A stretch of DNA of 29,412 nucleotides from a virus, in the IMG/VR virus record IMGVR_UViG_3300025646_007690, positions 1 through 29,412 of that record; one strand, 5' to 3'. The notes beneath the pieces were generated by a model. The model saw only the letters and a program-made list of their open reading frames with translations. It was not told the DNA's origin and searched no databases. This document shows, piece by piece, positions 6-28,349 of the stretch. A program made the translations under genes and the position numbers. Positions within the stretch are counted from its first letter, which is position 1. Every line of letters starts with the position of its first letter.

Positions 6-941
6 ATGGAAAGTAATAAAGTAAATATGTTTAACAACCTCCTCGTTGAAAAATATCGTCCCAAGCAGATTGCTGATTATTGTCTTAAAGAAGGTAATTC
101 AATTAGGCAATTGATTAATAAAGCTAAAGAGAGTGGAGAGATTCCTAATGTACTTCTTGTAGGTAGTCCAGGTATTGGTAAGACTACTCTTGCAAAGATT
201 ATTGTTAATGAACTAATCGAATGTGATCATCTATATATCAATGCATCAGATGAGAATGGTATTGATACTATCCGTAGTAAGGTTACGAACTATGCTAAGA
301 CAAAGAGTCTATTTCCTATCAAAGTTATTATATTAGACGAATGTGATGGTTTGACTCAAGATGGTCAGAGAGCATTGCGTAATGTAATGGAAGAGTATAG
401 TGCAATTACTCGATTTGTTCTTACTGCAAACTATAAGCATCGTATCATTCCAGCATTACAGAGCAGGTGCCAAGTATTTAACATAACTCATGATGTAGAG
501 GACGTAACCAGACGCATGGCTCATATATTGAATGAGGAAAACATCGTATGTAGTGAAGATGACTTGAAACAAATTGTTAGGGATAACTTTCCAGATCTTC
601 GTAAGACCATCAATACGATTCAAAAGCTTACAAATGATGGTAAGATTGAAGTTGATGATAGCTCTAACGTATCCAAACTTGTCGCTGATTTGTATAAGCT
701 TATTGAGCATGGACATGTTCTTAAGTGCAGAAAGCTTGCGATAAAGAATGAGCATGTGTTTAATAATGATTACCCTGTATTGTTGAAAGAGATGTTTAAC
801 CATATTGATAATCTAGATATCGATGAAGAAAAGAAAAAGTCGCAGCTTACAACTTGCCACGACTTTATCTATAAAATGTCTTTTGTTATGGACTTCGAAA
901 TCTGTGCTTACTCTTGCTTTATTACTTTAAGTAAATGCTAG
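6..941 (+). CDS. 44: DNA polymerase clamp-loader ATPase subunit (T4 gp44-like)
   Basis: AAA+ ATPase of the phage sliding-clamp loader; in T4 the gp44/gp62 complex loads the gp45 clamp for replication and for late transcription. Visible motifs: N-terminal EKYRP box (residues 15-19), Walker A GSPGIGKTT (53-61), Walker B VIILDECD (107-114), sensor-1 region LTANY (139-143) and the clamp-loader SRC motif (153-155) that supplies the trans arginine finger. The 311-aa length matches T4 gp44 (about 319). The first ATG is at 6; ATG at 27 (Met8) is an alternative, and only five bases upstream are visible, so the start is provisional. The gene ends 20 bp inside the convergent neighbour. Function is family knowledge; no gp62-like gene is visible here. 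Confidence 0.95.
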   Translation: MESNKVNMFNNLLVEKYRPKQIADYCLKEGNSIRQLINKAKESGEIPNVLLVGSPGIGKTTLAKIIVNELIECDHLYINASDENGIDTIRSKVTNYAKTKSLFPIKVIILDECDGLTQDGQRALRNVMEEYSAITRFVLTANYKHRIIPALQSRCQVFNITHDVEDVTRRMAHILNEENIVCSEDDLKQIVRDNFPDLRKTINTIQKLTNDGKIEVDDSSNVSKLVADLYKLIEHGHVLKCRKLAIKNEHVFNNDYPVLLKEMFNHIDNLDIDEEKKKSQLTTCHDFIYKMSFVMDFEICAYSCFITLSKC

Positions 942-1587: not shown

Positions 1588-2076
1588 ATGGCTAACATTA
1601 TTTTAGGTAATCTAGAAAAACCTAAAAATATATCTAAAAAGAAGCAGTTTACTTATGCTGATGTAAAAGTTGACTTTGAGTTTGATCAAACACAACAAGC
1701 AGCATTATATTCTAATCTTAAAGATAAAGATCTAGTTGGTAGTTATGATTTAGGTGCTATAGAAAATAGTATCGTAAATATATTTACTACCTTTCCCGGT
1801 GATAAAATTTTAAATCCTCAATTTGGTTTAAATTTAAATCAATATCTTTTTTTACCTTGTAATGATTCAACTGCTCAGAGAATAGGTAATATTATTAATA
1901 CCCAACTGTTATTACAAGAGCCAAGAATTAAACCTATAGAAATTGAAGTACTAGCAGACCCTGAAAATGATCAGTATAACATTAACATGGTACTAGGAGT
2001 GCCATTCATAAATAATAATACAACAATAAACTTTAAAGCATTGTTGAATTCAACCGGAATAGAATTTTATCAATAA
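1588..2076 (+). CDS. 25: Baseplate wedge protein, gp25-like
   Basis: Structural protein of the contractile-tail baseplate wedge, related to T4 gp25 and type VI secretion TssE. The core GPW/gp25 signature is visible around residues 50-90: a helix containing LGAIENSIVNIFTTFPGD followed by the conserved stretch around LNPQFGLNL, leading to a short loop and a second helix. At 162 aa it is a little longer than T4 gp25 (132), the excess being a Lys-rich N-terminus. It is followed by a gp6-like gene 2 nt downstream, the gp25-gp6 pairing seen in many T4-like genomes, so both identifications support each other. The start codon is fixed by the TATAAATA box 5 nt upstream; no Shine-Dalgarno is visible. 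Confidence 0.92.
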   Translation: MANIILGNLEKPKNISKKKQFTYADVKVDFEFDQTQQAALYSNLKDKDLVGSYDLGAIENSIVNIFTTFPGDKILNPQFGLNLNQYLFLPCNDSTAQRIGNIINTQLLLQEPRIKPIEIEVLADPENDQYNINMVLGVPFINNNTTINFKALLNSTGIEFYQ

Positions 2077-2078
2077 TC

Positions 2079-3905
2079 ATGGCAGAATCAGATTTTAGAA
2101 TAGAACAAGATGGTTACGTAGCATTTGATGCTGTTAGTCTCAAAGACTTGATCATCGAAAGAATGAACCAACAACAGGTTTTCACTGATCAAAACTATGA
2201 AGGTAGTAATCTATCTGCTATTATTGATATTGTAGCATATTCATATCATGTTCTTATCTATTATTTGAACAAGAACTCTTCTGAGAGTAATTTTAGTCAA
2301 GCTGAGTTATATGAAAATATTAATCAGATAGTTAAGAGTATTGATTATAACCCTACAGGGCCTCAAACATCTAATTTATCATTTGAAGCTACAGCTAACG
2401 CTAATTTAGCAACTAATTTATATACAATACCTAGATATAGTTATTTTACATTCAGCGGTACCTCTTTTAGTTTTACCGAAGATGTTTCGTTTCAAAAAAC
2501 TCTTAACGGTATTGAAGCTTTAACTAATTTACAAAACAACACATTACTTTATAATGGTCAGTTTGTTGAGTTTCCGGTGTTTGAGGCAATTGGTGAAAAT
2601 AACGAAGTTGCAACCCTAGCTGCATCTAATATAAACGACAACTTTTTCATTGATAATAACAGTATTGATGTTTATGTTAAACCTGCGGGTTTAGATACAA
2701 CTTGGGAGAAATGGTCAAGGTCAGCTTCTTTATATCTTGAGTCTGGAAGTGCTAAAAAATATTCAGTAAGATTTAATGAAGAAGAACAATATGAAATCAA
2801 GTTCGGTAATAATGTTAACGGTAAAAGATTAAATCAGGGAGATTTAGTACAAATTTATTATTTGAAATCTGATGGAGCTGAAGGTCAAGTTAGTAAAGGT
2901 TCTCTCAACAACCAACAGCTTTATTTTTATAATACTTCTACATTCAATCAAATTTTAACTGATACAACTTCTTCTGGTACCAATATTATTACTTCAGCTG
3001 AAAGTGCTAATGTAACATTTACAAATATTAATTCCTCAACATTGTTTAAAGAGAAAGAAACAGTAGCAGAAATTAAACAAAATGCACCTAACTTATTCAA
3101 TTCTCAGTATCGTTTAGTAACTACAGATGATTATAGAAATTATATAAGTAAGAATTTTGGTAATTGGATTAGATCCGTTGAAGTTGTAAACAATTTTGAT
3201 TATACTGCATTTTATCAAAAATACTTTTTTGATATTGGATTAGATAGACCTAATGATGATTCAAGAGTTTTGTTTAACCAAATTAATTTTGCTGATGCAT
3301 GTGATTTTAATAACGTTTATGTATTTGCAGTACCTAATAAAATATTAGAAACATCATTAGATATTAGAACTAATTATCTTTCAGTAGCTCAGAAGAATGC
3401 AATTAATATTTTGTTAAGTGATGTTAAGTCAGCAACTACTGAGTTAGTTGTAACAGACCCGGTTTACATGGAGTTAAATTTAGGGGTTACTCAAAGTGTT
3501 TCTGATTTTGACTTTGCAGATATTGCAGGAGATGAATCTTATCTTTATATTGAAGTTGATAAAAATTCTAGAAGAGATTTATCTTCAGTTAAAAACGAAG
3601 TAGCTTCAGTGTTTTTAAATTATTTTAATGTTAGTAATTTAGAATTAGGGCAGGTTGTTAGTTTAAAAGATTTGTCGCAATTAATATTAGATATTGACGG
3701 GGTTGCAGAATTTTCAACTAGAAGAAATTCATCATCAGGTACCATTATTAGTAATTTATTACAACTTGTTGTTTATAATCCAGTTTATGTTACAAGTGAT
3801 TTTAATTTTACTGAACAAGATATAGATTTACAATTTTTTCAATTCCCATATTTTAAAAATTTATCAACCATATCAGAAAGAATTGAAGTTATTAGACAAG
3901 GTTAA
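2079..3905 (+). CDS. 6: Baseplate wedge protein, gp6-like (baseplate J family)
   Basis: Forms the inner ring of the phage baseplate, where the gp6 dimer with gp7 and gp25 triggers sheath contraction (T4 knowledge). Recognisable from the N-terminal region typical of marine T4-like gp6: helices around SLKDLIIERM (21-30), then the conserved FTDQNYEGSNLSAIIDIVAY stretch (about 36-55) and the ELYENINQIVKSIDYNPTG segment (about 76-94). The length of 608 aa is close to T4 gp6 (660). The middle is beta-rich, with an FNEEEQYEIKFGNNVNGK-type segment found in the baseplate J fold; the C-terminal half includes the gp6 helical/beta region. The ATG starts 2 nt after the gp25-like stop and no promoter is seen, so it is translated from the gp25 transcript. 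Confidence 0.92.
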   Translation: MAESDFRIEQDGYVAFDAVSLKDLIIERMNQQQVFTDQNYEGSNLSAIIDIVAYSYHVLIYYLNKNSSESNFSQAELYENINQIVKSIDYNPTGPQTSNLSFEATANANLATNLYTIPRYSYFTFSGTSFSFTEDVSFQKTLNGIEALTNLQNNTLLYNGQFVEFPVFEAIGENNEVATLAASNINDNFFIDNNSIDVYVKPAGLDTTWEKWSRSASLYLESGSAKKYSVRFNEEEQYEIKFGNNVNGKRLNQGDLVQIYYLKSDGAEGQVSKGSLNNQQLYFYNTSTFNQILTDTTSSGTNIITSAESANVTFTNINSSTLFKEKETVAEIKQNAPNLFNSQYRLVTTDDYRNYISKNFGNWIRSVEVVNNFDYTAFYQKYFFDIGLDRPNDDSRVLFNQINFADACDFNNVYVFAVPNKILETSLDIRTNYLSVAQKNAINILLSDVKSATTELVVTDPVYMELNLGVTQSVSDFDFADIAGDESYLYIEVDKNSRRDLSSVKNEVASVFLNYFNVSNLELGQVVSLKDLSQLILDIDGVAEFSTRRNSSSGTIISNLLQLVVYNPVYVTSDFNFTEQDIDLQFFQFPYFKNLSTISERIEVIRQG

Positions 3906-3907
3906 AG

Positions 3908-11532: not shown

Positions 11533-11533
11533 A

Positions 11534-13591
11534 ATGGCTCATAAACATATATTTTATGTAACAGGTACAGATGTAAGCGTGTTAAGCGCTCAAGAAGCTT
11601 CTGGTTATTTTTATCAAAACCCTATTGATGGAAGCAGTGACTTTTATACTAACACAGCAAGTAGTATGAGCTTTAATGACAGTACATACTCTCAATTATT
11701 TTCAGCCAGTAATTTTGATAGTGGTGTCTTTAATTATAAAAGATCTACAATAATTGATTTAAGTGCAGTTAGATATAGTGAGTTTGATACTATTGTTTTT
11801 AATCTTTCTGGTATTGATGACTCTACAAATACAATTGTTAAAATGTTATTTGAACCTGAAGATGGTATCATTCAAACCGTTACGTATAAAAATAACGAAT
11901 TAATATTTGATAAAAATTTACCTTATAATTTAGTCATTGGAGGTAATACAGGAAGTAACCCTAAAAATGTTTTATATTCTTACGACTATACTTTAGAAGA
12001 AGAGCATCCTTTTGAAAGAACATTTCAAACTCGATTTTCTGCTTATAGACAAGATGGTATGATTGATGAATATCTTTTACCTCTTAGAGTAGCTAGAGAT
12101 AGTATCTATAATGTTGCTGATAAATTTAATTTATTAGACGCTACTATTTTACCTTTATCATCTAAAGATTTGATGATAAAAATGGAGTTAGAAAATCCTA
12201 ATTACGTAAATCATTTTGCAATAAAACGTGACATTACCCCAACACCTACAAGATCCTTAACCCCTACTAATACTCAACAAGCAACCCATACTAGAACACC
12301 TACTCCTACGTTCACAAGAACATCATCTCAAACACCAACAAAAACAAGAACAAGAACACAAACTAAAACACGTACTTATACCCCCACATCTACAATAACA
12401 AGAACTAGATCAAGAACCAGTTTTGTAACTAGAACTAAAACCCCTACTTTAACAAAATCTCGTTCACCGATAAACATTAACATACCGGTCACACCCCCTC
12501 CAACCCCGGCAGTTTCATTAGCACAAGATTGTAAAAGCAAAGAATTTACTTTAACTTATGAAGGTATAAACGATACTGTTGATCCTTCTACAGTAAAATT
12601 AGGTTTACAATATAATTATTCAGATGATGTTAAATCATATTTTGCAGTTGATATTCAACAAATTTTAGAAAGTAATACCGTTAAAGTTTATTTACCTGTA
12701 ACATCAACTGACTACACGGTTACTCCTTATGTATATTTTGAAGGAGACGACCCTGGCATTACTGTAACAAGTGTAATAGTGACTAACAATTGTTCAGGTC
12801 ATACTGTTACTTCTTTTACTCCTCCCCCTCCACCGGTGATTCCACCACCGGTGATTCCACCCCCTCCGGTAATACCACCCCCTCCGGTAATACCACCAAA
12901 AATTATAACTACACCTAACATCCAATCTGTGTTTCAGTTTGGTTATGGTCCAATTGTAGATAGCCCTATAGTTGTAAATTTACCTGCTCAGGATGGATAT
13001 GGTGACTTTTTACCTTTACCGGCTTTATATCAAGTAGGTAATCAACAAGTTTGTAATATTGTAGTTAACTGGAAAATTATTAAATCACAAAGATCTATTT
13101 TGGAAATGATAGATTCTATGACAGTTAACGGAAAAGTACAACCTATTTTACCAGCCGGGGCAGTTCAAGTAGCTAAAGGGGAACGATCCGGTAGGTCTGA
13201 AAGTTTTAATGAAAATGGGTTATATTTGGGACCTGCTATAACTACATCTTACCCATGGTATGAAGCTATCGACGGTACAAGATATTTCATGTGGGCTTAT
13301 GTGCAGGTAACTAATGTTGTTGATGATTTTAGTTATTATGAACGATGGAATGAATGTCATAGTACAATAAATCTTAATCAACCTACGGGGTATGAAATGA
13401 GATTACAAATTTTAAATCAAATTCAATACCCCGGAAAATATCCAGAAGCTGATCCCGAATTTACCGACATTCTTACGATACCTACTTGTAAATTCCCGGC
13501 ATTTGAATATACTATTATACAAAATATGATATCTTATGACAAATGGGTACAGGATGGACAACCTCCCACTTTTACAATAACAAATAGTTAA
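11534..13591 (+). CDS. Putative tail fibre/adhesin with Thr/Pro/Arg and poly-Pro linkers
   Basis: A 685-aa mosaic protein starting 1 nt after the previous fibre-like gene, without a promoter of its own. Residues 1-234 are an unknown beta-rich domain; 235-311 a Thr/Pro/Arg/Ser linker of the same style as in the upstream gene; 320-425 an Ig-like beta domain bounded by Cys (SLAQDCKSKEFTLTY to VTNNCSG); 428-455 a proline linker built of PPPPVIPP units; and 456-685 a C-terminal domain with aromatic-rich strands. No catalytic motif. Sharing the T-P-T-R linker with its neighbour suggests linker exchange by recombination and a joint role in host recognition. The fibre role is inferred from position and architecture. 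Confidence 0.75.
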   Translation: MAHKHIFYVTGTDVSVLSAQEASGYFYQNPIDGSSDFYTNTASSMSFNDSTYSQLFSASNFDSGVFNYKRSTIIDLSAVRYSEFDTIVFNLSGIDDSTNTIVKMLFEPEDGIIQTVTYKNNELIFDKNLPYNLVIGGNTGSNPKNVLYSYDYTLEEEHPFERTFQTRFSAYRQDGMIDEYLLPLRVARDSIYNVADKFNLLDATILPLSSKDLMIKMELENPNYVNHFAIKRDITPTPTRSLTPTNTQQATHTRTPTPTFTRTSSQTPTKTRTRTQTKTRTYTPTSTITRTRSRTSFVTRTKTPTLTKSRSPININIPVTPPPTPAVSLAQDCKSKEFTLTYEGINDTVDPSTVKLGLQYNYSDDVKSYFAVDIQQILESNTVKVYLPVTSTDYTVTPYVYFEGDDPGITVTSVIVTNNCSGHTVTSFTPPPPPVIPPPVIPPPPVIPPPPVIPPKIITTPNIQSVFQFGYGPIVDSPIVVNLPAQDGYGDFLPLPALYQVGNQQVCNIVVNWKIIKSQRSILEMIDSMTVNGKVQPILPAGAVQVAKGERSGRSESFNENGLYLGPAITTSYPWYEAIDGTRYFMWAYVQVTNVVDDFSYYERWNECHSTINLNQPTGYEMRLQILNQIQYPGKYPEADPEFTDILTIPTCKFPAFEYTIIQNMISYDKWVQDGQPPTFTITNS
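12236..12470 (+). repeat. Thr/Pro/Arg coding repeat, block 3
   Basis: Degenerate codon repeat encoding TPTPTR, TRTPTPTFTR, TKTRTRTQTKTR-type units, the same vocabulary as blocks 1 and 2 in the upstream gene. Probably a flexible or extended linker; the high Thr content also makes it a possible O-glycosylation target (inference). Confidence 0.85.
12818..12897 (+). repeat. Proline-rich tandem repeat
   Basis: Tandem units of about 15-18 bp encoding P(3-4)VI: two copies with CCGGTGATT followed by two with CCGGTAATA. The codon change between the pairs suggests stepwise duplication. Encodes a stiff poly-proline linker. Confidence 0.85.
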
Positions 13592-14515: not shown

Positions 14516-14871
14516 ATTCTGAAGAAGAGTATGAAGATACTTTTCAAGAACCAGAACCAGAACAACAGGCCCCGGAACCAATATTTGAATACAACCCCGA
14601 TCCAGAAGAACATTCACACCCAGTAAATCTAGTTCCACAAAAAATAAAACAAATCGTAAATGAAAACGATTTAATTAATGAAATTACTGAATTTTCAGAG
14701 TACTTGGATAGAGAGTATGAAGCTCTCTATCCTATTGTTATAGAAAATGATGTAACTAGAAATAGTAGAAGGGTCGATCAAGAGGTTCAAAGAGAACTTG
14801 AACGAAGATTAGATTTAGTCGATTATATTAGAAGATTATTTCAAGAACGTATAGAAGGATTAGTTAAATGA
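14512..14871 (+). CDS. Hypothetical protein with Glu/Pro-rich N-terminus (119 aa)
   Basis: Not recognised. Residues 1-50 are acidic and low complexity (EPEPEQQAPEP and similar) and likely disordered. Residues ~55-119 are predicted helical and charged (VDQEVQRELERRLDLVDYIR). GTG at 14512 overlaps the upstream TGA, and its own TGA overlaps the ATG of the glycosyltransferase by 4 bp, so it is translationally coupled on both sides. Confidence 0.6.
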   Translation: MNSEEEYEDTFQEPEPEQQAPEPIFEYNPDPEEHSHPVNLVPQKIKQIVNENDLINEITEFSEYLDREYEALYPIVIENDVTRNSRRVDQEVQRELERRLDLVDYIRRLFQERIEGLVK

Positions 14872-15692
14872 TTAATGTTTTATTTGCTACATGCGCGATT
14901 GGTGAAAAATATAATGAGAGATGTATAACCTCTCTTAAAGCTTACGATAAACTAAATTACGATAAGACAGATGAGCTAGTTATCTATACTGATGATGTAG
15001 ACAGATATAAAGATATTGAAACTAAAATTAAACTAACTGTAAGGCCATTTAGTATCAATCTTTCAGGTAATAAGTTTAGAGATAATACAATACTAAAACA
15101 TCTTATGCTTACATCTGCATTATCTAATGATAATGAGCATGAGATATATTGTTGGTATGATTGTGATGCATTTCCTATTATAGATAAAGATAGAATGCAA
15201 GAGTATGCAAACTATGATAAAGGTATCTATTACAAAGATGCTCATACATTTGCGAAGTTTGAAGATGTTTTATCTCACCACATTTATACCGATAGAGGTA
15301 AAAGATATAATACATACACCTTCTTAAACGTTACACATAAGGATAACATGCTTGTTGAGTATGCTCTTAATGATAAAGAAGAGATTACCTTTCCTGTTGA
15401 GACTTGTTTATTGTTTAACAGAGACTTATCTTCGCAATCATACCTACAGAAAGAGAAAGTATATATCAATACTACCATTGATGTAGTTAAGTATTGTATG
15501 GACTTTCATTTGAACGACAACTATGGTGAGAGTTTTGAATTAGGTATTATAATTGGTAAGAGTTTTAATAAAATAAAACAAATGCCAGTTATACCGTGCA
15601 TGTGTGACTTTCATTATATGCCAGCTGATTCAACTCAGCAGGATGTTGAAAGATATAAAGACCGTACTTTATATAAAGAGTTTTTATTATGA
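14868..15692 (+). CDS. Glycosyltransferase-like protein (GT-A fold, DCD motif)
   Basis: A 274-aa protein with the layout of a GT-A, nucleotide-sugar-dependent glycosyltransferase: an N-terminal Rossmann-like start (INVLFATCAIG), a conserved TDD element (41-43) and a DXD-type motif WYDCDAFPI with DCD at 98-100, expected to bind metal and sugar nucleotide. It lacks membrane segments and is probably cytosolic. A second protein of the same design, with DCD at nearly the same position, is encoded at 21575-22408. Coupled by an ATGA overlap to the upstream ORF and overlapping the carbamoyltransferase by 6 bp tail to tail. Substrate unknown: host surface glycan, phage DNA bases or fibre Thr residues are all possible. 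Confidence 0.7.
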   Translation: MINVLFATCAIGEKYNERCITSLKAYDKLNYDKTDELVIYTDDVDRYKDIETKIKLTVRPFSINLSGNKFRDNTILKHLMLTSALSNDNEHEIYCWYDCDAFPIIDKDRMQEYANYDKGIYYKDAHTFAKFEDVLSHHIYTDRGKRYNTYTFLNVTHKDNMLVEYALNDKEEITFPVETCLLFNRDLSSQSYLQKEKVYINTTIDVVKYCMDFHLNDNYGESFELGIIIGKSFNKIKQMPVIPCMCDFHYMPADSTQQDVERYKDRTLYKEFLL

Positions 15693-17420
15693 TTTTTTGA
15701 AGACCGTAACGTCAGGTAAGTACTTTGATTTAATAATCAAACCATTCATATCTTCTTTACCCATAATTGCAAATGCATCTTTGTATGTATTGAGAATAGG
15801 CTTACCTGCAACGTTAAAAGAAGTATTCAACAACACAGGAATAAATCCTTTATTAGCTGCTTCAGTAAGCATATCATACATAAGCTCATTCTGCTCTCTA
15901 GTTACGGTTTGTATTCTAGCAGTACCATCTGAGTGAGTAATACTTGCTAATTGCTCTCTATATTCTTCTTTGACATAAGCAGCAAAGTTCATATGTCTAC
16001 TTTCACCTTCCCAGTCAAAGTAAGTAGATACATCTTCTAATCTCACAATAGGAGCAAATGGTCTAAAAAACTCTCTATGTTTAACTCTATCATTTAAAAC
16101 CTTCTTCATTCCCTCTGCAGGAGAGCATATGATAGATCTGTTACCTAATGCTCTTGGTCCATGCTCAGCTCTTCCTTGAACAACTCCATAGATGTGTTTG
16201 TCTTTAAAAATTTGATCTATTATCTTGCTTAAGTTAAGAGGTTCAAACACTCTACCTTCAATCATATAGCTAAAGATATCGTTATCATCATATACCTCTT
16301 CCCCTGCATAAGTAAGATCCATTGGTTCTTCTGGTCTTAGATAATCAATAACTAAACCAGTACTCAAACCGCAATCAGATGAATTAGGTGCAATGTAAAC
16401 ATCTTTGCCGTGTGTCTTTCTTACATAATCTCTTATACGAGTATTGTAAAGAATATTCATACCACACCCACCAGTGATACAAACATTAGTTTTATAAAAG
16501 TCTATTAACTTCTTTACTTCATTAAAATGAAGCTCTTCAAATACATATTGACTTGTAGCAATTAAATCTTTAGCATCATTCCCTTTTAATCTATTTTCTC
16601 CTGATGCATGTCCGTGTTCATTAAAGTCAAAATGTAAACCTATCTTACTACCTAAATCACCCAAGTATTGTTCGGCTTTGTCTTCAACTGGATTCCAACC
16701 TACCCTATTCCATTTAGAGTAATAATCTTTAATAGGTTCAATCCAATCTTCTCTTACACTACCATACGAACAATACCCCATAAGCTTACCAGCATATGTT
16801 AAGCAAGCTTCACCATAGTCATGAATGTATTTGATATCATCTATAAAATAACCTAGATAGAAATAAGGATTGCCGTAATCATTAAAAGAGAAATGAATCG
16901 TTTTCATTTGTTTATCTCTTTCCTTCTTTCTATCAAAATGATATCCTAAATTCCATCCATCATCTCCCCCTCCATCAAAAGAGAAGACTAAAGCTTCATC
17001 AAAAGGGCTTTGATAAAATGTACCTGCAGCGTGTGATTTATGATGAAATGCAGCCCACCCATCACCGCTTGTTTCATTTGTATCACTGCATCCTTCAATC
17101 TGATTACCTTCGCTATCTAATCTTACTTGATTATGTTCAATCAGATCAACATTAAAGAATCTACCTATCTGTTTATTCTCCCAATCTGAGTTAATACTTC
17201 TTATTACATCTATTTTATCAATACCATATTTTTCTTTTATATAGTGTTTGATTATTTTAGTCATATACTCACCATCCATACGAGGCATAAAGTTACACCA
17301 TGCTAAGTTTTTATGATTGAATAGTCTCTCTAATTCTATAGCAATAAACTCCCCTTTATTATAGATAGTAATGCCAGCATTATGGCCTCCTGATATACCT
17401 GCTATGACTTTATCTTGCAC
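15687..17420 (-). CDS. Carbamoyltransferase (NodU/CmcH/TobZ family)
   Basis: Transfers a carbamoyl group from carbamoyl phosphate, via carbamoyl-adenylate, to a hydroxyl of a sugar or similar substrate. The 577-aa length is that of a full two-domain enzyme. The N-terminal Kae1/YrdC-type ATPase domain shows SGGHNAG (10-16), the metal-binding HHKSH (126-130) followed by AAGTFYQSPF, and FDGGGDDG (149-156). Further on come ITGGCGMN, PNSSDCGLSTG, and the conserved C-terminal elements GRAEHGPRALGNRSI, FFRPFAPI and LNTSFNVAGKP. It starts with GTG at 17420, 33 bp from the divergent membrane-protein gene, with a GATAAGTA box 5 nt upstream. Family members modify antibiotics, Nod factors and surface glycans; the phage substrate is unknown. 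Confidence 0.93.
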   Translation of the reverse strand: MQDKVIAGISGGHNAGITIYNKGEFIAIELERLFNHKNLAWCNFMPRMDGEYMTKIIKHYIKEKYGIDKIDVIRSINSDWENKQIGRFFNVDLIEHNQVRLDSEGNQIEGCSDTNETSGDGWAAFHHKSHAAGTFYQSPFDEALVFSFDGGGDDGWNLGYHFDRKKERDKQMKTIHFSFNDYGNPYFYLGYFIDDIKYIHDYGEACLTYAGKLMGYCSYGSVREDWIEPIKDYYSKWNRVGWNPVEDKAEQYLGDLGSKIGLHFDFNEHGHASGENRLKGNDAKDLIATSQYVFEELHFNEVKKLIDFYKTNVCITGGCGMNILYNTRIRDYVRKTHGKDVYIAPNSSDCGLSTGLVIDYLRPEEPMDLTYAGEEVYDDNDIFSYMIEGRVFEPLNLSKIIDQIFKDKHIYGVVQGRAEHGPRALGNRSIICSPAEGMKKVLNDRVKHREFFRPFAPIVRLEDVSTYFDWEGESRHMNFAAYVKEEYREQLASITHSDGTARIQTVTREQNELMYDMLTEAANKGFIPVLLNTSFNVAGKPILNTYKDAFAIMGKEDMNGLIIKSKYLPDVTVFKKS

Positions 17421-19826: not shown

Positions 19827-20810
19827 ATGTTAATTGATAATAGCTTAGTCAGCTTAGACAAATTGGTCGGAAATAAAATTGAAGGCTCTTCAATAAATGA
19901 CGTAATGGATGCTGGAGGTTTTAATTTCGAGGTAGTAGAAGAAAATCTTGGAAATAATGTTCAAGGAGCAGATAACTGGAAAGTGCTCCGAAGAGGTGAA
20001 GGAGGAGATGTAATTAATATTGTTCGTGATACATACCAGGTCATTCAGAATAGAGAGATTCTTGAGCCATTTGATGAAGTTCGTCGTCAGTTTAAAGCAG
20101 AATGGTCTCAGTGCGGTGTTATTGGCAAAGGTAATAACATTTGGGTTAGTGCAAAGCTTCCTGAAGAGCTGCAGCTTAAGAGCAATAGTCAAGATAAACT
20201 TTGCGGTTATATCATGGCTGTTCTTAATCATGATGGTACTAGAGCAGATTCTGTCTTTCCATATGTTGATAGATTGTTCTGTAACAATCAATTCAATACT
20301 GTAGCTAGATCAGCAAGAGGTATGACTATTATGCACCGTTCTAATTATGAGCAACGTATTAATGTATTAATGAATAGTTTTAAGAAAGGTATCGAAAAGA
20401 ATATTGAATTTGTTAGTACTGCTGATGCTCTAGACTCACAGAAGATCTCTCGAGAAGAGCTAGAGAAGGTAGTCAGCCGATTGTTTCCTGATAAGAAAGT
20501 TCGTAACAAAGGAGAAGAAGTACTCCTCTCAGGAGAGACGTCAAGGAATCGAGTCATTGAGCTGTTCTCTAACGGCGCAGGAAACAAAGGAGAAACTCGT
20601 TGGGACGCTTTCAATGCTGTTACTGAGTATATTGATCATCATCAGGGAGCAAAGCGGATAAACAATGCAATCTTACGTGACGGTCAAAGCGTGCTATCAT
20701 CAGATAGAATGCGCAGAGGATTTGAACGACGTTTCATGAACAATATGGTTGGCGGTCAAAGCAACAATCTGAAACATTCAGCCTTGAAACTACTTAGCGG
20801 TAAGCTATAA
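19827..20810 (+). CDS. DUF932 / phage-plasmid-like protein (327 aa)
   Basis: Belongs to the DUF932 (TIGR03299) family found in phages and plasmids, of unclear biochemical role. Recognisable by the N-terminal half around VLRRGEGGDVINIVRDTYQV and IQNREILEPFDEV, the centre with LPEELQLKSNSQDKLCGYI and LFCNNQFNTV, and the C-terminal signature KGETRWDAFNAVTEYIDHH. The 327-aa length is usual. It has its own early-type promoter with leaderless spacing. The stop codon TAA overlaps the TATAAT hexamer of the following promoter. Family members are often in replication/early regions, which fits the promoter class. Confidence 0.85.
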   Translation: MLIDNSLVSLDKLVGNKIEGSSINDVMDAGGFNFEVVEENLGNNVQGADNWKVLRRGEGGDVINIVRDTYQVIQNREILEPFDEVRRQFKAEWSQCGVIGKGNNIWVSAKLPEELQLKSNSQDKLCGYIMAVLNHDGTRADSVFPYVDRLFCNNQFNTVARSARGMTIMHRSNYEQRINVLMNSFKKGIEKNIEFVSTADALDSQKISREELEKVVSRLFPDKKVRNKGEEVLLSGETSRNRVIELFSNGAGNKGETRWDAFNAVTEYIDHHQGAKRINNAILRDGQSVLSSDRMRRGFERRFMNNMVGGQSNNLKHSALKLLSGKL

Positions 20811-21441: not shown

Positions 21442-21586
21442 GGGACTTCTTTACCAAGGTAAAAGAAGCTGGACAAAAGATCGCAACAAAGCATTATCAT
21501 TTAACAATTATACAATTGCAACACAAAAGATGTTATCTGACTTTTATTTCTTCAGAGATTGTAAAGCTCAGTTTTTAAATACCTAA
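21425..21586 (+). CDS. Small basic hypothetical protein (53 aa)
   Basis: ATG 21425 to TAA 21584-21586; starts MIKNDKGLLYQGKRSWTKDR and continues with an aromatic-rich helix (MLSDFYFFRDCKAQF). It overlaps the previous ORF by 17 bp and the convergent glycosyltransferase by 12 bp, and otherwise fills a gap. TATAAT (21412-21417) lies 7 nt before the ATG, as in other early-type genes, though no good -35 is seen. Function unknown. Confidence 0.5.
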   Translation: MIKNDKGLLYQGKRSWTKDRNKALSFNNYTIATQKMLSDFYFFRDCKAQFLNT

Positions 21587-22408
21587 CATAGATATAATTT
21601 CATCTTCTGTATCTTTTCTATCTATAACTAATCCAAAGTAGTTTAATATCTTTAGAGGTTTGTCTACACCTTGTTGTTCTTTTTCAGAAGCTACCCCGTG
21701 TATCATATTGCAGTAATTTGCTATTTCAATCTGTCTTGATACCCCAGTAGCTTTCATCTTAGCATGTTGACCTGCCATGCAAAAGAAAGTACTTTCAGGG
21801 TGAGTGCACTCGTTTGCTTTTTCACAAAGTCGGGATATTTCATCCCATTTATCGAGCATTACCTTTAGTTTATCATTATTCTTATACAGCATACGAGTTT
21901 CAACTCCTAGTACCGCATCAAGCATTTCTTCAGTAACTGCTTCTTTGACAGAGTTAACTCTTCGTCCTGTGTTGGGGTGATCTTTTGGATTGTCTATTTG
22001 TACTCTTACTGTATGGTGAGGGTAAAAAGTAGCATAGTATACGTCAAAGTCTTCCTCTAACATTTTAAGATAACTTTCATTATGCCATCCTGAATAAAAG
22101 CAATCACAATCGTTATAAAAAATGTAATCAAAATTTAATTCACTACATAACTTGATAGGGTATCTTTTTAAATTAAAATTAAATGTACCATATACCTCTT
22201 TAGGGTCATTAGGATAAAGCTCGTTAAAATCTCTAATAAAAACTCTTTCATTATTATAGTTGAACTTATCTGGCTTGTCCGTTAACATTAGGATAGAGAA
22301 GTTAGTATGTTTCAAAACAGAGTCAATCAAAATCTTAGATCGTTTGAAATATTGATTAGATTTTTCTCTCTCTCCGTCGATACAGATACTTCCTATTATT
22401 GTCTTCAT
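21575..22408 (-). CDS. Glycosyltransferase-like protein, second copy (GT-A fold, DCD motif)
   Basis: A 277-aa protein of the same design as the one at 14868-15692: N-terminal strand IGSICIDGE, a TDKPDKF element (43-49), and YNDCDCFYSG with DCD at 100-102. Later conserved-looking parts are HPESTFFCMAGQH, which may form the acceptor/donor pocket, and a His in NMIHGV near the end. No membrane segment. It probably transfers a sugar from a nucleotide donor; donor and acceptor unknown. Divergent from the RadA-like gene, with a CTTAAATA box 7 nt upstream of ATG 22408. It could be a paralogue of the first copy or an independent gain from the same family. Confidence 0.68.
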   Translation of the reverse strand: MKTIIGSICIDGEREKSNQYFKRSKILIDSVLKHTNFSILMLTDKPDKFNYNNERVFIRDFNELYPNDPKEVYGTFNFNLKRYPIKLCSELNFDYIFYNDCDCFYSGWHNESYLKMLEEDFDVYYATFYPHHTVRVQIDNPKDHPNTGRRVNSVKEAVTEEMLDAVLGVETRMLYKNNDKLKVMLDKWDEISRLCEKANECTHPESTFFCMAGQHAKMKATGVSRQIEIANYCNMIHGVASEKEQQGVDKPLKILNYFGLVIDRKDTEDEIISMLGI

Positions 22409-22432: not shown

Positions 22433-22457
22433 AGTGGAGTCAAAAAGGGAAGGAGCA

Positions 22458-22463
22458 TATAAT
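22458..22463 (+). promoter_or_regulatory. -10 element TATAAT, 6 nt from ATG 22470
   Basis: TATAAT followed by 6 nt and ATG 22470. Only a weak -35 (TGGAGT, 22435-22440, 17-nt spacer). It argues that the RadA-like gene starts at 22470, not at the upstream GTG 22434. Confidence 0.45.
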
Positions 22464-22469
22464 CATTGT

Positions 22470-23384
22470 ATGTTAGAATTAAATTTTAATCAGACTGATC
22501 TTTTATCTGTAGAGAATATCGAGATACCAGAGCGCTTCTACAGGCGTATGATGACTGGCATCGAAACAGTAGACGAATTTCTTCATGAAGGCTTCTTGCC
22601 TGGCTCAACTATGACTTTGACAGCTGCAGCTGGCTGTGGAAAGACTACGTTCATGATACAATTACTAGAAGGTCTTACAAAGAATGGATACAGCGTTGGA
22701 TATTGCTCAGGTGAAGAGAATATCTATCAGCTAGCTATGACTTGTAGACGATTGCAATGTACCAAGCTTCAGATTGCTAATAAGACTGATGTAGATGAGA
22801 TTGTTAAACTGACTAAGACAAATGACTTTCTAGTTATTGATAGCTTTCAAGCTTTGACTACTAGCAAGAAAATGAACAGCTTAGAGAAAGAACGATATGC
22901 ATTGATGAAGCTAGTCAAGGCTGCTCAAGAGAATGAATGCTGCGTTTGTTTCATTATGCATCTTACTAAGGCAGGTAAGCTTAAAGGCACTACGCTTGTT
23001 CCTCATACAGTTGATGCTAATCTTAATATCATGATTGATGCTGAAGTAGATGATCAAGCTAGACGTATTTGGTTTTCAAAGAACAGATTTGGACCTACTA
23101 ATGAATTGACTCTTATGATGACTCATTCAGGCTACGATATGTATAGCAAGGTTGTAGCTAAAGAGAACAAATACGTTAGCAAGAAGAATCAGAAAGAAAT
23201 TATTAAAGACGATCTTAAGAAGAAGAAGCTTGATAGTGTTAATGTTAATCAGATCTGTAGTCAATATAAAGTAAGTGTTGTGTATGCTAATTCAGCATTA
23301 CGTGAGTTAGTTGCTGAAGGTGCTTATCTTAAGATAGGAAGAGGAGATAATGCCACATGGCAGGTGTGTCATACTATTAAATAA
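22470..23384 (+). CDS. RadA-like RecA-fold ATPase with C-terminal winged-helix-like region
   Basis: A RecA-superfamily ATPase closest in motif to bacterial RadA/Sms, a DNA branch-migration helicase used in recombination. Seen: TGIETVDEFLHEGFLPGS leading to Walker A AAAGCGKT (52-59), SGEE after strand 2, Walker B FLVIDSFQAL, a MHLTKAGKLKGTTLVPHTVD segment that parallels RadA's VGHVTK...GP...LEHMVD, and the RadA-specific KNRFG (204-208) followed by GPTNEL. The N-terminal zinc finger and C-terminal Lon-like domain of RadA are missing. Instead, after a Lys-rich linker (~225-250), residues ~250-304 look like a helix-turn-helix/winged helix. KaiC/DnaB-like ATPases are less likely because of KNRFG. 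GTG 22434 is the alternative start. Confidence 0.82.
   Translation: MLELNFNQTDLLSVENIEIPERFYRRMMTGIETVDEFLHEGFLPGSTMTLTAAAGCGKTTFMIQLLEGLTKNGYSVGYCSGEENIYQLAMTCRRLQCTKLQIANKTDVDEIVKLTKTNDFLVIDSFQALTTSKKMNSLEKERYALMKLVKAAQENECCVCFIMHLTKAGKLKGTTLVPHTVDANLNIMIDAEVDDQARRIWFSKNRFGPTNELTLMMTHSGYDMYSKVVAKENKYVSKKNQKEIIKDDLKKKKLDSVNVNQICSQYKVSVVYANSALRELVAEGAYLKIGRGDNATWQVCHTIK
23376..23383 (+). promoter_or_regulatory. Late-like promoter, ATTAAATA, 5 nt from ATG
   Basis: ATTAAATA overlaps the last codons and stop of the RadA-like gene and ends 5 nt before ATG 23389. Confidence 0.55.
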
Positions 23385-24776: not shown

Positions 24777-25502
24777 GTGAAGCATATGAAAATGATTAAT
24801 TTGGAGGTGGTATCTCCTCCCAGGTGCGGTAGCACTTTACTTTGGCATTTCTGTAAATATAATGTTGCAGGAAAAAATAATGGTTTCTTTCAAATAGATA
24901 ATAATGTAAATAAATCTCACCCTCCTTTTGAAAGCGATCACATAAAGTTAAGCAACTTTGACTTTCATACATATTATATTGTTACTGTTAGACACCCTTT
25001 TAGTCAGTTAGCTTCTTTATTAGTATATGATAATAAGAATGAAAATAATACATATGATACATCTTCATTATCTGAAAGATATGTGATGGGTAAAGTTGAT
25101 GAATCTATTAGAGATTTTAAATGGTGTTATGATATTTTAAAAAATAATACTTTCAATACCGTATTATTTAAATATGAAAGATTTGTAAATGAATATAACT
25201 ATTTCTTTGAACATTTTCAAGAAGTATTTGGGTTTGAATATAATGAAGAGGATCGTAATAATTTTTACGAAAACTTTGGTTTAGAAGTTGTAAATTCTAG
25301 AGTAGGTTCAGAAGGATATATAGGTTATTCTCAAAATCATGTAAGTGTAAATCAAGGTAACAATGAAGAAAATATAAAATATATACCTAAACGATTTAGA
25401 AAAGCTATTCAGAACAAATATATTAGATCAGGAGTATATGATATGTTTAATTATTTTCCTGTTACTTTAGATGGTATAGAATATTTACCTTCTTACCCTT
25501 AA
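24777..25502 (+). CDS. Sulfotransferase-like P-loop protein, copy 1 (241 aa)
   Basis: Matches the PAPS-dependent sulfotransferase fold: 5'-phosphosulfate loop SPPRCGSTLLWHF (13-25, P-R-x-G-S-T core) and 3'-phosphate-binding VRHPFSQLASLL (about 65-76, Arg and Ser conserved), followed by LFKYERF, the usual strand after the helical insert. It would transfer sulfate from PAPS to a sugar hydroxyl or tyrosine. Starts possible at GTG 24777, ATG 24786 or ATG 24792. Unlike its neighbours it is preceded by a structured leader. Its stop overlaps the convergent gene by 4 bp. A second protein of this type is encoded at 26537-27238. The acceptor is unknown. Confidence 0.75.
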   Translation: MKHMKMINLEVVSPPRCGSTLLWHFCKYNVAGKNNGFFQIDNNVNKSHPPFESDHIKLSNFDFHTYYIVTVRHPFSQLASLLVYDNKNENNTYDTSSLSERYVMGKVDESIRDFKWCYDILKNNTFNTVLFKYERFVNEYNYFFEHFQEVFGFEYNEEDRNNFYENFGLEVVNSRVGSEGYIGYSQNHVSVNQGNNEENIKYIPKRFRKAIQNKYIRSGVYDMFNYFPVTLDGIEYLPSYP

Positions 25503-26089
25503 CGTTTCTTTTTAGCATCATTAGTTGATTGCATATGTTTTACTCCCATAATCGTTCCAATGATACTAAATGAATTTGTTAATAATATACTGAACATATT
25601 AGCCCATGAGCTCTCAATTATCTGATTTTCGTTTCCGGTTACTATTGTGTAGAAGTATAATATAGATGTAATAAAACCTACTCCTAATATAACTACTAAT
25701 GATGTACTTACTATTTTATTAACTAATTCGTTTTGATTTTTTTTAACTATGAAATCTAAATCTTCTTCAGCATTTAATTTAGCTTTTTCTGCTATAGCTT
25801 TTGCTTTATTAGATTCTTCTAGTGCTTTTTTTAAATCTATCTGAGCTTGTTCGTTTTTTTCTTTCCATTCTACTAGCTCTTTATTTTGTGTTTGAACCTG
25901 GCGAGTTATTTCAAGTCTTTTCTTTCTTGTTTCGATATCCTTTTCGATACTTTCTTTTACATATTTTTCTAGGTCAGGATTATCTGAAGTGTCTATAACT
26001 TTTAAAAAATTACCTTCAATTCTAATATTATGATTTACAAGTTCTAATATTTGTTCAGAACTTGTTTTTGAAAATTTTATTTTCTTCAT
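25499..26089 (-). CDS. Coiled-coil protein with two C-terminal membrane helices (196 aa)
   Basis: Residues 1-40 form a small N-terminal region (KFSKTSSEQILELVNHNIRI). Residues ~45-115 are a long charged coiled coil (Lys/Glu/Ala rich), then come two membrane segments at ~124-150 (NKIVSTSLVVILGVGFITSI...) and ~163-183 (ANMFSILLTNSFSIIGTIMG), with a basic tail. It is the last gene of the kinase operon and starts within the stop of the response regulator (ATGA). It may be the membrane-bound output or partner of the phage two-component pair, but no known effector motif is seen. Confidence 0.7.
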   Translation of the reverse strand: MKKIKFSKTSSEQILELVNHNIRIEGNFLKVIDTSDNPDLEKYVKESIEKDIETRKKRLEITRQVQTQNKELVEWKEKNEQAQIDLKKALEESNKAKAIAEKAKLNAEEDLDFIVKKNQNELVNKIVSTSLVVILGVGFITSILYFYTIVTGNENQIIESSWANMFSILLTNSFSIIGTIMGVKHMQSTNDAKKKR

Positions 26090-26520
26090 TTATAGACTTT
26101 AAATGGTGCTGTTCTATCTTTATAGCCACCAAAGTCTTTTCTAAAATCTTCTAATCTTGGTTCTATTTCATCACTCTTGATTATCCAAAATTGAGCTCCT
26201 GCTTTCATGGCTTTAGCTTGTTCAGTTTCATCATTAGAGCTTGATATAATCCCTATGACAACCCCATCTCCGTGTACAAAGTTTATACGTCTACATAATT
26301 CAATCCCATCGAAACTACTCCCTATAATATTAAGATCAACAAATATACAATCTGGTTTAGATAAATTGTTGTCTACTATATTTTTAAAGTACTTTTCTGC
26401 TTCGTCAGCACTACTCATTGCTTTTAAAGATAAAGTTATATCAAGCAAAGAACATGCATCTTCAAAGACTAAATGAAACAGGTCTTCATCGTCAACTAAA
26501 AGAATGGAGTCAATCATCAT
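26086..26520 (-). CDS. Receiver-only response regulator (CheY-like), 144 aa
   Basis: A complete receiver domain with all key residues: acidic pair Asp10/Asp11 in LLVDDEDLF, phospho-acceptor Asp62 in CIFVDLNIIG, the Ser of GIISSSNDE (about 93-94) in place of the common Thr/Ser, and Lys115 in WIIKSDE. No DNA-binding or enzymatic output domain follows; only a ~20-residue tail. It should accept phosphate from the histidine kinase encoded two genes upstream. Signalling would then be through protein contact, as with CheY or Spo0F. An ATTAAATA box lies 13 nt upstream of ATG 26520, so this gene may also have its own transcript with a short leader. Confidence 0.9.
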   Translation of the reverse strand: MMIDSILLVDDEDLFHLVFEDACSLLDITLSLKAMSSADEAEKYFKNIVDNNLSKPDCIFVDLNIIGSSFDGIELCRRINFVHGDGVVIGIISSSNDETEQAKAMKAGAQFWIIKSDEIEPRLEDFRKDFGGYKDRTAPFKVYK

Positions 26521-26533
26521 GGCATCTGTTTAT

Positions 26534-26541
26534 TATTTAAT
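26534..26541 (-). promoter_or_regulatory. Late-like box ATTAAATA, 13 nt from ATG 26520
   Basis: The box overlaps the stop of the sulfotransferase-like gene. Its spacing to the start codon is longer than at other sites and would leave a leader of about 7-8 nt. May be coincidental in AT-rich DNA. Confidence 0.3.
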
Positions 26542-27238
26542 GATATTCTTCATCTAAATTGAATACTTTGTCATTAGGTAAGGTAGATAAATCAAATGTT
26601 TCGTAGTTATGTCTATCTATATATTTTTGAAGGGTTGTTGTAGCGGTCTCTCTATAATCTTCTGGAATTAATTTAAGATTTGCTTTGTTATCTCCTTTAC
26701 CGCTACTAACATGGAAAGGTCTAAAGTCTTTTCTCTTCTTCTGACCGGCAATCATATCTTGAGCTATCGTTTCAGCACAAAAATCAGCTTGAAAATTATT
26801 AAACTGTTCATCAGTTATTTGAACGTTATAGTTATCACTGATAAAGGTTCTAAGATAGTCGTAGTTATTATGATAATCCTCATAATTGATTACAATACCA
26901 TTACCTTTATTATTATCTACGAAATCGTAGAAGAAAGATAATCTTTTGTCAAGCTCATTCAACTTCATCTCTGCATTACCAGGTATGACTTTTATAGCTC
27001 TATCTTTTCTATCAATACTATCTACATGTAACATTGACCCATATATACCAAACGGGTGTCTGAATAGAAATAAGTTATTGTTTCCGTAATCATTAGCTGA
27101 TTTACTCTTATCGTTCAACATTTGCGGGTGAACTAAACTACACTTCTCACAGACAAACTCTCTCAAGAATAAATTAAGTATTGTTCCTCCACTTCTAGGT
27201 ACAGCGAATATGTTTATTTGTCCTATTGGTTTGGTCAT
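26537..27238 (-). CDS. Sulfotransferase-like P-loop protein, copy 2 (233 aa)
   Basis: Sulfotransferase signature loops: AVPRSGGTILNLFL (12-25, 5'-phosphosulfate loop) and LFRHPFGIYGSML (about 57-69, 3'-phosphate binding Arg and Ser), with GIVINYEDY as the following core strand. The length and order match copy 1 at 24777-25502, though the rest differs much. It starts in the stop of the histidine kinase gene (ATGA overlap) and precedes the response regulator, so it is transcribed as part of the signalling operon. It may modify a surface glycan or a protein Tyr; which one is unknown. Confidence 0.75.
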   Translation of the reverse strand: MTKPIGQINIFAVPRSGGTILNLFLREFVCEKCSLVHPQMLNDKSKSANDYGNNNLFLFRHPFGIYGSMLHVDSIDRKDRAIKVIPGNAEMKLNELDKRLSFFYDFVDNNKGNGIVINYEDYHNNYDYLRTFISDNYNVQITDEQFNNFQADFCAETIAQDMIAGQKKRKDFRPFHVSSGKGDNKANLKLIPEDYRETATTTLQKYIDRHNYETFDLSTLPNDKVFNLDEEYH

Positions 27239-28308
27239 ATACAGAAGTTATTTAGCTCTCTCAATTGGATTTTAAACTTCGTACCTTGTTCTAATTTTTC
27301 ACAACTAACTCTAAAGCCATGCTCTTCTAAAATAGCACAACATATATTAAGACCTAACCCTGAACCAGATTCTTTTTGCTTATCATTTCTAACATACGGT
27401 TTGCGTAACTCTTCAAATTGCTCTTGGTTAATACCTCTACCATTATCTTCTATAATAATAGACTCATTACTTTTATCAAAGTAAATCTTTACCAACTTTG
27501 TATCAGAGTCATTATACTTTAACCCATTTCTAATTAAGTTATCACATGCAGTGCAGAATAAAGATTCATTAACACTTTCATCAGGTAAGTCTTCAATAAT
27601 TACACTTCTATAATATGATGTCTTACTTAGGTATTCATCTAATATACTACCTATGTTCTTTACTTCTCTGTTTAATTTTGCGTCGGGTTTTACTAAGTTA
27701 GTAAACTCATATACACCTCTATATACTTTCTGAGTATGCATTAACCCTTCTTCAATCATTCGTAATGGAGCTCCTATTCTCAATTCTTCTATTTTATCAT
27801 CAGCTAATCTTCTTTTTAATGAGCTTACACCTCTCGGTATGTATGTATTGATACCTGAATGCATATCATGTCTTAATATTTTAGCAGCGTGTTCTAAATA
27901 AGCATTCTTCTTTTCTATCTCTTGTTGTTGAACTATTAAGTCTGTTATGTCGTGTCTTATACTAATGTAACCAAATAACTTATTATCTTTAAACTCTCCC
28001 TTAATCCAAGACTTAACAAAATATAACTCTCCTTTTTTGTTAATGTTTATTACACATGGATGGTACCATATTTTTCTATCTTTTACTACAGTACTATACA
28101 TATCTCTCCAAAACTCTTTACCATGTACACCTGAATTAACTATATTATGATCTTGACCTAAACATTCTTCAAGTGAATACCCTGCAACTTCTAAAAACTT
28201 TTCATTTGCATAAGTTATCTTACCTTGAGCGTCAGCTTTGCTTATTAAAGAAGTTTCTTCTAGAAGGAGTTCTGCCCCTTCTGCAGTCTCATTTGTTAGC
28301 ATCATCAT
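27235..28308 (-). CDS. PAS-domain sensor histidine kinase (357 aa)
   Basis: Soluble sensor kinase that autophosphorylates on His and passes the phosphate to a receiver. A PAS domain of the Aer/redox style covers ~residues 15-125 (LISKADAQGKITYANEKFLE, then VAGYSLEECLGQDHNIV and a following FW...W pattern). A helix leads to the phospho-acceptor His147 in ILRHDMHSGINTY. The ATPase domain shows the N box (CDNLIRNGLKYN, ~255-266), G1 box IEDNGRGI and G2 box GSGLGLNI. No membrane segment, so it senses a cytosolic signal. ATG 28308 is chosen over TTG 28338 since a TAAATA box ends 5 nt upstream. First gene of a four-gene operon with sulfotransferase-like, receiver and membrane proteins. Confidence 0.93.
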   Translation of the reverse strand: MMMLTNETAEGAELLLEETSLISKADAQGKITYANEKFLEVAGYSLEECLGQDHNIVNSGVHGKEFWRDMYSTVVKDRKIWYHPCVININKKGELYFVKSWIKGEFKDNKLFGYISIRHDITDLIVQQQEIEKKNAYLEHAAKILRHDMHSGINTYIPRGVSSLKRRLADDKIEELRIGAPLRMIEEGLMHTQKVYRGVYEFTNLVKPDAKLNREVKNIGSILDEYLSKTSYYRSVIIEDLPDESVNESLFCTACDNLIRNGLKYNDSDTKLVKIYFDKSNESIIIEDNGRGINQEQFEELRKPYVRNDKQKESGSGLGLNICCAILEEHGFRVSCEKLEQGTKFKIQLRELNNFCI

Positions 28309-28313
28309 ATTAA

Positions 28314-28321
28314 TATTTAAT
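28314..28321 (-). promoter_or_regulatory. Late-like promoter, ATTAAATA, 5 nt from ATG 28308
   Basis: On the minus strand ATTAAATA ends 5 nt before the ATG at 28308; it drives the kinase operon. It touches the -35 of the divergent early-type promoter for the phosphatase-like gene. Confidence 0.6.
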
Positions 28322-28349
28322 TGAGTTTTATTGGGCAAGTTACTACAAT
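28321..28349 (+). promoter_or_regulatory. Sigma70-like promoter (TTGAGT-17-TACAAT), 6 nt from ATG
   Basis: TTGAGT (28321-28326), 17-nt spacer, TACAAT (28344-28349), 6 nt, ATG 28356. Canonical spacing; predicted +1 is the start codon. Confidence 0.65.

Follow-up and report, generated by a model that had tools for sequence, protein, structure and literature searches.

The gene at 22470..23384 of the window, i.e., of the whole analysed stretch of 29,412 nucleotides (IMG/VR record IMGVR_UViG_3300025646_007690), encodes a RadA-lineage offshoot that constitutes a distinct phage family; its RecA-fold motor core of the RadA type is followed by a predicted C-terminal winged helix. The hosts of the family are a group of uncultured T4-like phages represented in IMG/VR. 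Neither the RadA engine nor the winged helix is new; their combination and the family are apparently undescribed in the literature searched: a search by titles and abstract openings, with subscription papers largely outside its reach, found no description of a RadA-like winged-helix phage family.

The layout of the gene and the other features of the window are listed in Table 1. An in-frame GTG is located upstream of the ATPase reading frame, at 22434; in the full-length relatives, the alignment begins at the position that corresponds to 22470. By analogy with RadA (PMC5512693, available text), the N-terminal segment is a probable inter-subunit clasp. None of the 37 full-length members possesses a CxxC pair within its first 30 residues, so the C4 zinc finger is absent, as the original prediction had claimed. 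The Lon-like domain of RadA, also claimed to be absent, has no room in a chain that stops about 80 residues past the motor core, and a tblastn search of the window and four related records, in which the queries were the Lon-like regions of four RadA proteins from bacteria, gave nothing convincing (best E 0.05). The N-terminal collar of DnaB and gp41 is absent too, only about 24 residues preceding the core. The RadA motifs that the prediction had described as intact proved to be so: Walker A, HLTK, PH..D and KNRFG are invariant in the 37-sequence alignment, while Walker B and the whole HLTKxGxLKG...PHxVD stretch are invariant or nearly so. The HLTKAGKLKG stretch is the probable DNA-binding loop region, and KNRFG, judging by its role in RadA, probably provides the piston lysine and the arginine finger (PMC5512693, PMC4786428, available text).

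Table 1. Features of the window; residue numbers refer to the RadA-like protein.
Feature	Position	Strand	Extent or basis
Clamp loader, gp44-like	6..941	+	phrog_168 E 2.1e-72; T4-like phage context
Two baseplate wedge genes, presumably gp25-like (1588-2076) and gp6-like (2079-3905)	1588..3905	+	phrog_261, phrog_219
DUF932 gene	19827..20810	+	PF06067 E 2.1e-33
Promoter-like GGAAG-N5-TATAAT	22448..22463	+	one mismatch from family consensus GGAAC-N5-TATAAT
RadA-like ATPase gene with predicted C-terminal winged helix	22470..23384	+	304 aa plus stop
N-terminal segment without zinc finger, residues 1-24	22470..22541	+	family alignment; CxxC count
RecA-fold motor core, residues 25-224	22542..23141	+	TIGR00416 over 21-222; VIA-align RadA 8rxc_C Z 26.6 over 7-230
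Walker A AAAGCGKT, residues 52-59	22623..22646	+	translation, alignment
Walker B DFLVIDS, residues 119-125	22824..22844	+	translation, alignment
HLTKAGKLKG, residues 164-173	22959..22988	+	alignments; counterpart of the RadA HVTKxGxLAG stretch
KNRFG, residues 204-208	23079..23093	+	kept in 37/37 aligned members
Lys-rich disordered linker, residues 226-238	23145..23183	+	pLDDT <50 at 230-239; similarity to L037 falls off here
Winged helix (predicted), residues 239-300	23184..23369	+	predicted structure; Pfam GntR matches in 6/37 members

HMM searches clearly place the motor core with RadA. The NCBIfam RadA/Sms model TIGR00416 matches the window protein with an E-value of 3.6e-29 and a score of 101.8 bits, well below the equivalog cut-off of 403.05 bits, and it matches all 37 aligned members (best 4.8e-34). 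The runners-up among the NCBIfam models are KaiC (best 29.8 bits, 2.3e-7, the cut-off of the KaiC equivalog models being 408 bits) and phage DnaB (20.3 bits). The Pfam KaiC family PF06745, a superfamily-level model, scores 49.6 bits, over its cut-off, and covers mainly residues 28–97; DnaB_C, with 26.6 bits, just misses its cut-off of 27, matches all 37 members at E-values up to 0.01 and passes the cut-off with the gene in some records. A sequence search of the PDB returned RadA 5lkm and 8rxc at about 2e-17, followed by KaiC at 1e-7. Comparison of the family with four bacterial RadA proteins using hhalign gave 2.3e-31 over 195 columns; the value was 8.5e-6 for five gp41 proteins from the same phage group, i.e., 25 orders of magnitude weaker, and 0.026 (probability 1.9%) for four UvsX proteins of the same phages. 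One more candidate, phrog_26214, considered as a separate phage family, was rejected, being RadA itself, as is evident from the 733 bits that Enterococcus RadA reaches with it.

RadA is the best match by fold as well. A Foldseek search with the full model placed RadA chains at ranks 1–5 and also found archaeal KaiC-like single-domain ATPases (e.g., 2dr3); VIA-align gave Z-scores of 26.6 (2.3 Å, 215 residues) and 24.2 for RadA, 23.5 for the DnaB-like G40P (22–23.5 for DnaB-type helicases), just 0.7 under the second RadA entry, and about 20 for KaiC. In a tree of 51 proteins, the phage family forms one clade (96/90), and bacterial RadA is nearest to it by branch length; gp41, at the end of a branch of 7.4 changes per column, has a weakly supported place (83/74) beside RadA, probably owing to long-branch attraction. 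The original prediction had offered a position between RadA and DnaB-type helicases; this is not borne out, the profiles being far nearer to RadA and gp41 lying on so long a branch, and in the HMM comparison that it proposed no non-RadA helicase family matched better than RadA. KNRFG, which it had named among the RadA motifs and which, in the available text of PMC5512693, is said to be absent from other SF4 members, is not diagnostic by itself: gp41 proteins of the same phages (L088, L090, L092, L093, L095) have KNRYG or KNRFG, and the UvsX proteins (L089, L091, L094, L096) have KNRF. The assignment to the RadA lineage therefore rests on the profiles, and the missing zinc finger and Lon-like domain put the phage protein outside the RadA family proper. 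It probably works like a RadA motor despite lacking both of these parts and scoring below the RadA cut-off.

Successive scans of IMG/VR brought the family to 5, then 10 and finally 45 loci, in overlapping sets (L037 onward include the same contigs as L001–L016, with other flanks). The 37 full-length sequences, comprising 36 loci and the window protein, make up alignment A3, from which the loci cut by contig ends (L071, L075, L079, L080), those split by an intein (L074, L077) and L055, L056 and L078, near-duplicates by eye from their ends, were left out. Across the 37 members, identity to the window protein goes down to about 40%, the architecture remains unchanged and all proteins end in the winged-helix region. 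The catalytic motifs are intact and the core is under strong purifying selection, dN being far under dS (e.g., 0.002 versus 0.204, and 0.065 versus 0.722). With 45 loci and a single clade, the suggestion of a distinct phage family has held. A tblastn search of 50,697 phage records with the window protein and with the distant member L067 found no full-length relative; the matches, in 25 and 24 records, respectively, are partial (at most 69% of the query), and those that are annotated are chiefly bacterial RadA, the others being unannotated, one dnaB, Cellulophaga ‘recombinase A’/UvsX-like and one megaphage. No full-length relative was found in 72,556 plasmid records searched by tblastn with the window protein, where none of the matches (93 records) covers 80% of the query and every named one among the best 40 of the 93 is RadA. 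Bacterial and archaeal genomes, scanned once, yielded 581 pattern matches, none of which was confirmed.

AlphaFold2 modelling with the 37-row alignment (mean pLDDT 84.3, pTM 0.70, blocks of 80–87 across residues 241–300) predicted three helices (residues 239–251, 259–266 and 270–282) followed by a two-stranded wing (286–289 and 296–299), and the tail modelled alone from residue 230 had the same winged helix (mean pLDDT 78.6). The original prediction had described a helix-turn-helix-like segment after a Lys-rich linker and had asked whether the C-terminal part folds at all; in both models the segment is folded as a winged helix. VIA-align of the tail gave Z-scores of 8–9 with many winged helices, including Z-alpha, GntR-type regulators and ribosomal S25-type proteins, and up to 9.3 over 68 residues; Foldseek matches of the tail alone are weak, the best being the DNA-binding AspA (5.8e-3). 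Since DNA-binding and ribosomal winged helices match at nearly equal Z-scores, the fold of the tail is clear and its role is not; winged helices serve many roles besides DNA binding. The tails of the window protein, L049 and L067 have a pI of about 9.6–10.2, and among five tails with a calculated charge, that of L059 is net acidic (−2.2) and that of L069 weakly basic (+1.9). The LRELV motif of the recognition helix and KxGRG of the wing are among the best-conserved tail positions. The winged helix probably binds a partner, or DNA in duplex or branched form. Thus, of the stripped-down RadA motor with its own DNA-binding module that had been envisaged, the RadA-lineage motor and the predicted winged helix stand, and the DNA binding is suggested by the fold and by the mostly basic tails.

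Between close relatives, the tail has a history of its own, distinct from that of the motor. The window protein gene and that of L037 are about 96% identical in the core and about 65% identical from about 23165 to the gene end, after which the next gene is 92% identical. Seven close pairs, with a core pS of 0.02–0.45, were compared over 68–85 tail codons each; synonymous divergence of the tail exceeds that of every equal-length core window in five of them and is lower in the other two (L045/L047 and L060/L061). Two pairs share a member (L043/L044 and L042/L044) and the tails are only 68–85 codons long, so these data are a strong hint, and not proof, that the winged helix has been exchanged repeatedly. 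The winged helix looks like a swappable part. A sulfotransferase-like gene, recognised by eye, lies directly behind the tail in the L037 contig, and local gene gain or loss may therefore have brought the tail change.

Among same-strand neighbours of the family, the DUF932 gene comes up most often, being present in the available flanks of 21 of 43 loci; the flanking genes give no clear pointer to recombination. A separate DnaB_C gene of the gp41 type (93–107 bits) was found in six of 23 records (G011, G012, G013, G014, G015 and G016), and a separate UvsX-type gene (RecA match) in 6 of 25, the same six records; the records without them are mostly short fragments. These six records make the RadA-like protein an additional RecA-fold ATPase, and a replacement of gp41 as well as of UvsX is rejected on their account. 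The 147-kb record G001 and shorter records contain no second DnaB_C gene, which is uninformative because all of them are fragments.

Several other genes of the window were noted. Interspersed genes at 15687–17420 (−), 14868–15692 (+), 21575–22408 (−), 24777–25502 (+) and 26537–27238 (−), including a NolO-type carbamoyltransferase (phrog_1601) and several glycosyltransferase- or sulfotransferase-like genes recognised by eye, suggest glycan modification. The region 26086–28338 (−) contains, by eye, a response-regulator-like frame (26086–26520) and a PAS/histidine-kinase-like frame (27235–28338), a possible phage two-component pair. Two large proteins encoded at 9346–13591 (+), with long Thr/Pro repeat tracts (TPTxTxT..., PPPPVIPP...; by eye), are probably tail or fibre proteins.

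In two relatives, L074 (about 3300–5723) and L077, which has the same layout, the family gene is interrupted in the Walker A loop, between the equivalents of K58 and T59, by a split intein. The sequence ...AGCGK is followed by an N-intein of about 30 aa with a stop codon, a frame of about 330 aa that by eye looks like a Vsr/EDxHD-type homing endonuclease, and a frame in which a C-intein ending in HHN is followed by TS... and the remainder of the protein; the Pfam model Intein_splicing matches the C-intein at 5.7e-7, below the cut-off. The gene is uninterrupted in L057, a close relative of the split loci. The arrangement of split intein and endonuclease reportedly matches that of the ‘fractured genes’ of Dassa 2009.

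The TATAAT of the promoter-like element ends 6 nt before the ATG of the window gene, with no Shine–Dalgarno-like sequence between them. A single such element equals the chance expectation for the window (mean 1.0), so its support comes from position and from conservation in relatives. Upstream of 40 family genes, GGAAC-N5-TATAAT is exact in 24 cases and has one mismatch in eight, three in six and four in two (the one-mismatch element of L069 is out of place, about 50 nt upstream and out of frame), and the first ATG lies exactly 6 nt past TATAAT in 13 of the 40. Record G012 contains 19 exact copies versus 0 in five Markov sequences, and G011 contains 15 versus 0–1; each of the other spacings, from 0 to 19, occurs 0–2 times in these records, and there is no exact copy in G001 or the window and one in G004. 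In G012, 7 of 19 TATAAT with the GGAAC box have, at distance 6, an ATG that starts a frame of 50 codons or more, versus 7 of 405 without the box (Fisher 3e-7); the figures for G011 are 6 of 15 versus 10 of 685 (Fisher 2e-7). With the 6-nt spacing, transcription would begin at the start codon itself; therefore, transcripts of these genes are possibly leaderless, judging from the sequence.

Records G012 (L097–L106) and G011 (L107–L116) carry this strictly spaced class of elements before the family gene and before RNase H-like, clamp-loader-like, QueE-like and DUF932-like genes, recognised by eye. G012, a T4-like phage record, also encodes a sigma-70-type factor of 387 aa with regions 1.2, 2, 3 and 4 (L098:10743-11906:-, about 30743–31906 of G012), the gene of which sits behind a GGAAC-N5-TATAAT element of its own; a role of this factor as the reader of GGAAC is not supported, since it is present in 1 of 19 records searched and G011, which lacks one, has 15 exact sites. 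The class was not found described in the literature searched by titles and abstract openings, with few subscription papers covered. A speculative and rather unlikely picture would be a RadA engine with an exchangeable head that recombination re-aims at other DNA sites or partners, expressed in part of the group as leaderless mRNA under this phage-specific promoter class.

The reading that we favour, with about even chances of being correct, is a ring-shaped motor on single-stranded DNA. Subunits would form a ring locked by the N-terminal clasp, with the lysine and arginine of KNRFG reaching into the ATP site of the neighbouring subunit; the ring would translocate during recombination-dependent replication and would widen D-loops made by the phage UvsX, or move branches, and the winged helix, held on a flexible tether at the place of the Lon-like domain, would serve as a targeting head that positions the motor via duplex or branched DNA or a partner. 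We infer the ring, the DNA translocation, the role at D-loops and the DNA binding of the winged helix, together with helicase activity and branch migration. The translocation parts are kept, which argues for a DNA motor; those linked with ring stability and with RecA-coupled work are missing, and the loss of both the zinc finger and the hexamer-stabilising Lon-like ring of RadA speaks against it. A site-directed loader or initiator, whose winged helix recognises particular phage DNA or a phage partner and whose motor opens or remodels DNA there for origin firing or replisome loading, is the main rival and less probable, to which we give perhaps one chance in a handful. It would account for the exchange of winged helices between relatives, suggested by five of seven pairs and by the window and L037, although that comparison uses 68–85 codons per pair and pairs that are not all independent; the conserved LRELV and KxGRG fit a general contact with DNA or a partner better than a shifting sequence specificity. 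In G011, the GGAAC-N5-TATAAT element stands before the family gene and also before a gene that was recognised as clamp-loader-type by eye rather than by HMM, so that the two may be co-expressed.

Somewhat less probable still is a regulatory ATPase, a KaiC/ArlH-like switch or a transcription regulator that does not translocate and whose ATPase acts to control the winged helix; the Pfam KaiC score above the cut-off, the GntR-type matches in six of the 37 members and the Foldseek match to 2dr3 are consistent with it, but the E-values of RadA models are over 20 orders of magnitude better than those of KaiC models, and the invariant or nearly invariant KNRFG and TKxGxLKG have no obvious need in a pure switch. 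That the protein is a divergent gp41/DnaB-type replicative helicase in place of gp41 is very improbable: the DnaB_C score just below the cut-off and the VIA Z-scores with DnaB-type helicases point in that direction, but the protein has no N-terminal collar, its hhalign match to gp41 is far weaker than that to RadA, and full-length gp41-type genes coexist with it in six records. A truncated RadA acquired by chance and functionless, as the missing zinc finger and Lon-like domain could imply, has a negligible probability and is refuted by the conservation of full-length homologues, which form one clade, are built alike even where identity to the window protein is as low as about 40%, and are under strong purifying selection.

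Ring stability and RecA-coupled work are the tasks usually assigned to the Lon-like domain and zinc finger of RadA. If the favoured reading of a DNA motor holds, a natural and conserved motor of the RadA type that lacks both would reveal the minimum that the engine requires, and its combination with a small add-on would show how motors can be re-targeted, the compact protein and its natural tail variants being ready-made controls for testing this. A third RecA-fold ATPase in T4-like phages that have gp41 and UvsX also bears on recombination-dependent replication.

The nearest known system by sequence, profile and fold is bacterial RadA/Sms (TIGR00416; 5lkm, 8rxc), with which the phage protein shares Walker A and B, HxTKxGxLxG, HxVD and KNRFG; unlike RadA/Sms, it has a winged helix and neither the C4 zinc finger nor the Lon-like C-terminal domain. 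According to the available text of PMC5512693, pneumococcal RadA is a hexameric 5'-3' helicase that is loaded by RecA and widens D-loops, in its KNRFG, K251 serves as piston and R253 as arginine finger, its hexamer has support from the Lon-like ring, and its zinc finger is dispensable for ATPase and helicase activity; the available text of PMC4786428 describes branch migration driven by RadA, which was abolished by a zinc-finger mutation in E. coli RadA. DnaB-type phage helicases and gp41 have the SF4/RecA-type fold in common with the phage protein, and gp41 of the same phages shares KNRYG or KNRFG; unlike gp41, the RadA-like protein lacks the collar, is encoded by a separate gene in the same records and gives a far weaker profile match. 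Other phage proteins on a RecA-like core are the Wildcat Gp80 mycobacteriophage group (PMC4523182), where helicase activity was shown for Gp80 and for a form of it that lacks the N-terminal part, and GP46 of sk1-like phage (PMC8965321), likewise shown to have helicase activity; in the available texts both are termed DnaB-related or RecA-like, not RadA-like, and it is by these descriptions only that they are set apart here. Archaeal KaiC-like ATPases (PH0284, 2dr3) are single RecA-fold domains of similar size, with lower sequence scores. A 360-aa protein of LR756508, a 484-kb uncultured phage, differs in having KNRRG for KNRFG, a long acidic C-terminal part and a long tree branch; on its hhalign match of 1.1e-15 over residues 7–212, including the N-terminal ‘IPD...MKTGI’, it is to be regarded as a remote relative of the family.
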